The position numbers and the translations under genes are program-made. From assembly GCA_030550455.1 (NCBI GenBank), contig JAUQPH010000001.1, positions 252,259 through 316,258 of the forward strand: 64,000 bases of DNA, in the 5' to 3' direction. The notes beneath the pieces were generated by a model. The model ran no database searches. It was not told the origin of the DNA and worked only from the letters and a program-made list of their open reading frames with translations. Source of the stretch: Thermoproteota archaeon (GTDB taxonomy: Archaea; Thermoproteota; Thermoprotei_A; Sulfolobales; NBVN01). Positions 54,076-60,371 of the stretch are shown here, in pieces; the stretch's first letter is position 1, and every line of letters starts with the position of its first letter.

Positions 54076-54133
54076 AGCACTCAGTGGAGTCCGGGTCATC
54101 ATTGATCAGATAGGATGCCTCTCCTCATTCAAC
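54076..54133 (-). ncRNA. C/D box guide RNA
   Basis: On the minus strand: box C ATGAGGA (54128-54122), a 12-base guide (54121-54110), D' CTGA (54109-54106), a 3-base spacer, C' ATGATGA (54102-54096), an 11-base guide (54095-54085), and D CTGA (54084-54081). The spacing is textbook; only box C deviates at one base. A seven-T tract (54066-54060) follows as terminator. The targets are not clear; the first guide has nine pairs with GGAUGCCUU, near the 5' end of 23S rRNA. Confidence 0.7.
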
Positions 54134-58098: not shown

Positions 58099-59949
58099 CT
58101 AACTTAGCTTAGTGAGGAAGTCTCCTGGGTAAAGCTCGAGGGCCTTAAACCACGAGACCAGTAGTTTCCTCCTCTCTCTTGGATCCTGCGGTACGTAAAG
58201 CGGTCTACCTCTTCCATCAATTACTACTCCTACAACTCCACCGCGTACTCTCTTCCTAACTCTTCTGCCGTATCCCTGCCCGAAGTCGAACTTCTTAGTC
58301 GGCTCTACGGTTACAACTACCTCTTTATACTGAGGTATAGGTATTCTCACTACGCTCCCAAAAGTTAGCTCTACCCGCTCTTTCTCTTGCTCAGAATACT
58401 CTATGGTGATATCCGCAACTTTCTCACCGAGAGATCCGACACCTGCAGCAGCTACTAAAGTACCGAGTGGTACGAGGCACTCCTTCTCGAATATCTCGAG
58501 CGCTATCTCTCTATATATCTTCGAGAGCACTCCCAAGTGAGGTATCATGAATACGCTGTCTTGCATTATGTACGTAAACCCTATCGGTTGGAAGGCATCT
58601 GCGAGTATAATCATAGATTGAGCCCTCCTTGGAGCTCTAGAGAGGAGACCCCCGGTGCCTATGATGTAGTCTACTCTCCTCAAGTCTATATAGGTCTCCT
58701 CGGCTTTAACTTCCTCAAATATATCGGATATAGTTCTCTCCCTCTTAACTCCCTTGAGCTCTCTAGCCAAGTACTTGTGGTGGTTGAAAGCCATTCTTAT
58801 GCTTTCGCGGGCTACAGCGTGCTCGACTACGAGGTCCTCTAAGGACATAGGTATAGTTGTAGGTCTGATCATCTTGTTGTAGACTATACCCATTATCTCA
58901 TCGTCTGTGAGGTCGAGTGGTATCCAGCGCTTAACATTCTCTAGACCGGCTTCTTTCAGTACGTTTCCTATGCTATAGCTCATCCCGAGGTTAGCGCTGA
59001 CGGTTCTCAGAAACCTCCCGTCGAAGACTGAATAAACGTTCGTTGTCGCACCACCCATACCTACCCCTATGACGTTGACCTTCTTCATCTCTGCGAAAGT
59101 TCTTATCATGAGCCCTTCGGCAGCTGGCGTCGGCATAATGTCTGTTGAAACGAGCTTCATCAGCTTTTCGTAACCGGGTGCGTGAGCCATAACGTGCTCC
59201 ATGAAGAGCTCTAGAATAGCGTTTCTCGCAGGCTCTACTTTCTCTACTTCTATCTGGGGCCTGATGTTATCTACGATCCTGACATCGAAGAAGTCGTCCG
59301 ATAGTATCCGCTTTATATCTTCTCTAGCGTCCTTATTTCCAGCGTACACCACTGGGAGCCTAAACGTAGCCCCGAATCTCGGCCTAGGCTTAGCTACAGC
59401 TATCACTTCACTCATCTCCAGAACGTGGGTCTTGTCACCTCCATCAGTTCCACCAGCTAGAAGTATCATGTCTGGTCTCAGAAACCTCAAGGTGTTTATT
59501 TTCTCATGTATTTCTCTACCATCGTCTACCGATAGAACGTCCATCACTATGGCTCCAGCACCTAAAGCAGCTCTCTGAGCGCTTTCAGCGGTAATACTCT
59601 TGACAACACCAGCTACAAGCATCTGGAGACCTCCACCAGCACTGCTAGTTGATACATAGACGTCTATACCTACCCTACCACCCCGATAGGGCATGACGAA
59701 CCTGAGTTCTTCGGTTGAGTCATCAAGTATCTTGTGTCCAGTAAGCTCTTCAACCTCTCTCACAGCATTTCTAACCCCCTTAGTAACATCTTCTACAGGC
59801 TTCTCAACTGTCGTTGGCGCCTCGCCACTTGCTAGAAACCTCCACTCACCGTCTATCTTACCGAAGAACCTCGCTTTAGTAGTCGTACTTCCTACATCTG
59901 TTGCGAGAATAAACCTAGGCTCTCTAGCGTAGCTTACTACGTCCATCAC
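58099..59949 (-). CDS. GlmL/MutL-like ATPase (glutamate mutase accessory family)
   Basis: A 616-residue actin/Hsp70-fold ATPase of the MutL/GlmL family, encoded beside adenosylcobalamin-dependent carbon or amine mutases in bacteria, where it is thought to act as a chaperone or reactivase. ATP-binding segments are LATDVGSTTTKARFFG at the start, MILLAGGTDGGDKTHVLEM near residue 165, GVGMGGATTNVYSVFDG near 300 and IIGTGGLLSRAP near 425. No mutase subunit, B12 gene or amino acid fermentation gene is in the window, so its client is unknown. Start GTG 59949 or ATG 59946. Confidence 0.88.
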   Translation of the reverse strand: MMDVVSYAREPRFILATDVGSTTTKARFFGKIDGEWRFLASGEAPTTVEKPVEDVTKGVRNAVREVEELTGHKILDDSTEELRFVMPYRGGRVGIDVYVSTSSAGGGLQMLVAGVVKSITAESAQRAALGAGAIVMDVLSVDDGREIHEKINTLRFLRPDMILLAGGTDGGDKTHVLEMSEVIAVAKPRPRFGATFRLPVVYAGNKDAREDIKRILSDDFFDVRIVDNIRPQIEVEKVEPARNAILELFMEHVMAHAPGYEKLMKLVSTDIMPTPAAEGLMIRTFAEMKKVNVIGVGMGGATTNVYSVFDGRFLRTVSANLGMSYSIGNVLKEAGLENVKRWIPLDLTDDEIMGIVYNKMIRPTTIPMSLEDLVVEHAVARESIRMAFNHHKYLARELKGVKRERTISDIFEEVKAEETYIDLRRVDYIIGTGGLLSRAPRRAQSMIILADAFQPIGFTYIMQDSVFMIPHLGVLSKIYREIALEIFEKECLVPLGTLVAAAGVGSLGEKVADITIEYSEQEKERVELTFGSVVRIPIPQYKEVVVTVEPTKKFDFGQGYGRRVRKRVRGGVVGVVIDGRGRPLYVPQDPRERRKLLVSWFKALELYPGDFLTKLS

Positions 59950-60371
59950 CCAGAATGGTTTAAGTCAACTAAAATAAGTACCCGAACACGGCAACTAAAA
60001 CCACCTAACGTGAATCCTCATGTAGCTGTTTCGAGTTTAATACTTGTTCATGTTGATTAATACTGATTGAAATATTTAGGGTAAGTACCTAGGGACCTCA
60101 GAGAGCGGGAGGCTAACTAAAAACGAACCTTGGGAGCTTAGGAGCTGGTACCGTGTGGTAAAGCCTATTCTAAGACTGGTCTAGGTAGCTGGTAACTAAA
60201 GGCAACGATTCTGTCAGCGCTACAGTGGCTCATCAACATCAGGCCGCCCGTCGTTCGCATCATCCAGACAAAAAGTAGATAAAGAGCTAATATGTGCTGT
60301 CCGAATCCTATAGCTAGCATAGCTGTGGAAATATAAAACTAGGGAAAACCATGCTACCGCATTAGGCCGGT
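59950..60371. other. Gap holding a C/D box RNA
   Basis: Divergent-convergent spacer of 422 bases between the GlmL-like gene and the acetoacetate-decarboxylase-like gene. Its only recognised content is the minus-strand C/D RNA at 60209-60268 and AT-rich promoter-like stretches upstream of the GlmL gene. Confidence 0.5.
60209..60268 (-). ncRNA. C/D box guide RNA for 16S rRNA C1402 (predicted)
   Basis: On the minus strand: box C ATGATGC (60263-60257), a 14-base guide (60256-60243), D' CTGA (60242-60239), C' TGATGA (60235-60230), a 12-base guide (60229-60218), and D CTGA (60217-60214). The D' guide pairs without mismatch with CCGCCCGUC, the universal 16S decoding-site sequence (E. coli 1399-1407). 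Five bases from D' lies C1402. The D guide pairs with GCUACAAUGGC (16S near 1233-1243) with one mismatch and would point to A1236. A TATA-like box lies upstream near 60278-60285. Confidence 0.82.

Follow-up and report, generated by a model that had tools for sequence, protein, structure and literature searches.

The ribose of the small-subunit rRNA nucleotide equivalent to C1402 is methylated in bacteria, archaea and eukaryotes (PMC11542601). The bacterial C1402 is modified to m4Cm through RsmI and RsmH (PMC5053481). At the equivalent positions, Cm1376 is found in the 30S subunit of P. abyssi, Cm1639 in yeast and Cm1703 in human (PMC7005279, Table 4), and the corresponding Cm1645 of Arabidopsis 18S rRNA, for which an archaeal equivalent is also listed, is guided by the C/D snoRNA U43 (PMC11542601, Tables 1–2). 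A survey of seven archaeal species has yielded sparse predictions in helix 44, the nearby position 1408 included (PMC4644070), and in a seven-species survey no rRNA position was common to all (PMC7994747).

In the window examined here, by which we mean the whole 64,000-nucleotide stretch of DNA that was analyzed, there is a box C/D small RNA (sRNA) gene whose product very probably guides the 2'-O-methylation of C1402 by means of an L7Ae–Nop5–fibrillarin particle. The prediction is well supported, and both the modification and the kind of RNA are already known.

The sRNA gene and its pairing with 16S rRNA

A complete box C/D sRNA can be read from the window sequence on the minus strand, where from 60268 to 60209 it consists of UCUGG, AUGAUGC (C), GAACGACGGGCGGC, CUGA (D'), UG, UUGAUGA (C'), GCCACUGUAGCG, CUGA (D), and CAGA (Table 1). 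A sequence-only reading of this DNA had placed a C/D RNA here without giving its strand, and the assignment is borne out by the four boxes, by their frequency far above that in shuffled sequences and by the conservation described below. The boxes C, D', C', and D are ordered with archaeal spacing, except that box C contains one non-consensus base and that the interval from C to D' is of 14 nt, where a D' guide interval usually has 12 nt; that from C' to D is of 12 nt. The terminal stem UCUG/CAGA adjoins boxes C and D. The gene is intergenic, with an acetoacetate-decarboxylase-like ORF on one side and a MutL/GlmL-family ORF on the other.

Table 1. Features of the sRNA locus in the window.
Feature	Positions	Strand	Remarks
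Box C/D sRNA gene	60209..60268	-	Approximate ends, terminal stem UCUG/CAGA included; based on sequence, homologues in relatives and stem covariation
Box C, AUGAUGC	60257..60263	-	One change from the consensus RUGAUGA
D' guide interval, GAACGACGGGCGGC	60243..60256	-	CGACGGGCGG pairs with 16S 1399–1408, box-plus-five C1402; invariant or G·U-preserving in most relatives
Box D', CUGA	60239..60242	-	Sequence and four-box pattern scan
Box C', UUGAUGA	60230..60236	-	Sequence and four-box pattern scan
Second (D) guide, GCCACUGUAGCG	60218..60229	-	16S GCUACAAUGG, box-plus-five A1236, one internal C·A mismatch
Box D, CUGA	60214..60217	-	Sequence and four-box pattern scan
MutL/GlmL-family ORF	58099..59949	-	Pfam PF13941; downstream of the sRNA and separate from it; neighbor only within the genus, in several genomes

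In free-energy folding, the isolated sRNA was no more stable than shuffled sequences, which is to be expected because C/D sRNAs fold on protein. An Rfam covariance search assigned the sRNA to no family at the gathering score, and the best sub-threshold match by E-value was sR3 (18.9 bits vs. 41). A sigma-70-type scan was set aside as inapplicable to archaea. A second C/D-sRNA-like element, which reads AUGAGGA-GAGGCAUCCUAU-CUGA-UCAA-UGAUGA-CCCGGACUCCA-CUGA, is present between two ORFs on the minus strand at 54081–54128; no contiguous match between its guides and the rRNA of this genome exceeded 7 positions.

A single 16S gene was detected in the genome (G000:C5:13219-14716, reading ACACACCGCCCGUCGCUCC), and its target stretch is CACACACCGCCCGUCGCUCC. 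The E. coli numbering used for this gene was taken from conserved flanking sequence, on the basis of established knowledge of 16S rRNA. Between the D' guide CGACGGGCGG and CCGCCCGUCG of this 16S rRNA (E. coli 1399–1408) there is an uninterrupted run of ten Watson–Crick pairs, and the flanks of this duplex are unpaired, both A1398 and C1409 being mismatched. The perfect pairing with 1399–1407 that was noted earlier is therefore confirmed on the organism's own 16S rRNA and is one pair longer. C1402 pairs with the fifth nucleotide upstream of D', a G, in keeping with the box-plus-five assignment made in the same reading. The genes for fibrillarin and Nop5 are adjacent in the genome and a gene for L7Ae is also present. 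No match was obtained in a search of the genome with the RsmI model (TIGR00096), although at 87.8% genome completeness this does not prove that RsmI is absent.

Conservation of the sRNA within the order

Homologues of the sRNA, in which the guides and boxes are retained, were identified by BLAST in 27 of 60 relatives. The pattern consisting of the guide, D' and C' was present in 71 of the 197 genomes of the order, as against none for the reversed-pattern control, and a stricter pattern was matched in 16 of 398 genomes of the phylum, all of them within the order (control 0). Additional genomes were brought in by a two-mismatch search (58 matches vs. 3 in the control). By the BLAST, pattern and two-mismatch searches combined, the sRNA is present in 29 of the 31 genomes of the window's family, and the two genomes without a match are both about half complete. 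The sRNA is also found in other families of the order, its carriers corresponding to named records that include Zestosphaera tikiterensis (the window's family), Ignisphaera, Staphylothermus, Thermogladius, and Pyrodictiaceae. Across these homologues, C1402 is the constant predicted target.

Only 3 of the 27 possible single changes in the guide are able to keep pairing, whereas 26 of the 33 guide changes in the two-mismatch search rows are one and the same C→U opposite G1405, by which a G·U pair is kept; these 33 changes come from related genomes, so that the independent events are fewer, and some of the other changes are from probable chance matches. Further, the two arms of the terminal stem covary (true partners 6.66 vs. 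5.23 ± 0.17 for re-dealt ones; 300 shuffles), an effect that is absent from the chance bacterial matches. The pairing with the organism's own 16S rRNA, the conservation, the G·U-preserving changes and the protein machinery strongly support both the target, C1402, and the RNA-guided mode of ribose methylation that had been predicted from the sequence. Archaeal guides evolve fast, and the retention of this one, directed at a ribose that is methylated in all three domains, across several families of the order suggests that selection on Cm1402 is strong.

Several variants of the locus were observed. In homologues of the Desulfurococcaceae type, the Pyrodictiaceae type and family f4 (L147–L174, L134, L142–L146), there is no canonical box D and the outer box C is weak; many of them have terminal stems that are rich in G+C and long, with up to 11 bp (GCCGGG/CCCGGC), and the inner D'/C' boxes are near canonical. 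Two bins named 'TACK group archaeon' (L069, L073) contain GACGGGCGG-N-CUGA...UGAUGA-N-CCAUUGCAG within a different outer stem, and this element may be related to the guide RNA at a deeper level. In family f11 (L175–L179), the sRNA begins a few bases past the 3' end of a tRNA-scoring gene and, because of this adjoining start, it may be processed from a tRNA–sRNA transcript. In two relatives (L108, L109), the 16S matches span about 2300 bases, not 1500, which suggests 16S introns or insertions.

The second guide and alternative readings of the locus

The best site for the second guide in the rRNA operon is GCUACAAUGG of the 16S rRNA, in which box-plus-five falls on A1236 and one C·A mismatch lies inside the duplex. 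This stretch is unchanged in the 16S gene of every relative where the site is readable. The rRNA operon offers no better site for the mismatched guide, and of the five exact copies of GCTACAGTGG in the genome, one is the sRNA locus and the other four are at sites that contain no tRNA. In the window's family, box D is CUGA in all 21 homologues examined and a perfect second guide is found in none of the 21. In Desulfurococcaceae and similar relatives, the second guide matches 16S rRNA perfectly and the D box is lost; in families f3, f4, and f9, a perfect 10-nt second guide is present in 25 of 33 homologues and CUGA at D in 0 of 33, f4 having AUGA-like variants. The second arm is, in short, perfectly paired without a D box in the Desulfurococcaceae-type families, but mismatched and boxed in the window's family. 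Due to this loss of box D in relatives and the conserved C·A mismatch in the window's family, methylation of A1236 by the second guide is doubtful and we regard it as uncertain. The sequence-only reading, in which the second guide pointed to 16S rRNA around 1236, was correct as to the site, but the mismatch was not mentioned in it and the D box is lost in some other families.

In family f11, the second guide is perfect, box D is intact and D' is UUGA, and the sRNA of this family may resemble the ancestral one more closely. The notion that box D is never intact where the second guide is perfect was dropped, as this family has both. In six members of f9 another sequence stands wholly in place of the second guide; some of these substitutes are similar to antisense 16S around position 1360. 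The second guide UUGUUGACRC... of loci L168, L173, L065, and L082 is similar to the antisense of 16S near E. coli position 1360, which suggests a swap of the second target. It is conceivable, if rather unlikely, that throughout the order the sRNA is retained for the one methylation, that of C1402, and that the second arm mainly docks 16S rRNA around 1233–1243 without methylating it; if true, one arm of a conserved guide RNA would be catalytic and the other would have a structural role alone.

A different view of the same arms is that the sRNA is mainly an rRNA chaperone, which would clamp 16S rRNA at about 1236 and about 1402 during assembly, methylation being secondary. Such roles have been proposed for double guides (PMC7994747), and the sequence of both arms is kept despite one lost box, as in the 25 homologues of f3, f4, and f9 noted above. 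However, the register of the D' guide relative to the D' box, which is needed for box-plus-five methylation but not for pairing, is exact in nearly all homologues, and in f11 the perfect second guide is joined with an intact box D; we consider a mainly chaperone role to be improbable, though worth keeping in view. The position of the gene could also be read as that of a cis-acting kink-turn element under the control of L7Ae, belonging to the 5' leader of the MutL/GlmL-family gene that lies downstream and is next on the same strand here and in several other genomes of the genus. The sRNA is, however, constant while the neighboring genes differ between genera; other genera carry it elsewhere, without a MutL/GlmL-family gene, and the conservation is centered on the guides matching 16S rRNA, all of which makes a leader element most unlikely. 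The neighboring protein, used as a query, gave no match in the named genomes.

A relaxed four-box pattern had 2 matches in the window, as against 0.017 per dinucleotide-shuffled window (1 match in 60 shuffles), and of these two only that at 60209–60268 has a 10-nt rRNA match. The guide, D' and C' pattern was found in 69 stretches of the whole collection. Crenarchaeal or TACK genomes accounted for about half of these stretches; the others, scattered over bacteria, agree with chance expectation, because the collection is mostly bacterial, and they lack the second guides and stems that are common to most of the crenarchaeal matches. Although the motif is short and the same pattern gives chance bacterial matches, a chance look-alike whose guide is a stray antisense 16S copy is contradicted by the shuffles, the reversed-pattern controls and the wide conservation with covarying stems, and its likelihood is negligible.

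Proposed mechanism and relationship to known systems

Once the sRNA is transcribed, L7Ae would bind both of its kink motifs, C/D and C'/D', and the complex would then be completed by Nop5 and fibrillarin. The guide upstream of D' would pair with 1399–1408 of 16S rRNA, and the target of fibrillarin would be the 2'-OH of C1402, a nucleotide of the P-site/decoding region whose pairing partner in the guide lies five positions upstream of D'. The second guide would pair with 16S rRNA around A1236 where, in view of the mismatch in the window's family, it may mainly hold this second site and not methylate it.

The described RNAs that it most resembles are the archaeal box C/D double guides (for example Rfam snoPyro_CD and sR3), with which it shares the four boxes, two guides, a terminal stem, a length of about 55–60 nt, a 16S target and weak sub-threshold covariance matches; it differs from them in lying outside every Rfam family, in its slightly long D' interval and in the fixed second-guide mismatch of the window's family. 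Cm1376 of P. abyssi is likewise an archaeal 2'-O-methylation of the same nucleotide, but in a distant archaeon, and the comparison is one of modification. U43 and Cm1645 of Arabidopsis provide a further case in which the equivalent C is methylated under the guidance of a C/D RNA; U43 is eukaryotic, and the likeness drawn here is one of target. In the case of bacterial RsmI (m4Cm1402), the same ribose is modified, but by a stand-alone protein enzyme. The apparent convergence with RsmI that was proposed from the sequence is correct in that bacteria use this enzyme, but it is not new, since Cm at this position has been recorded previously (PMC7005279; PMC11542601). With the predicted guide described here, C1402 would clearly exemplify how a protein and an RNA machinery can arrive at one and the same nucleotide.
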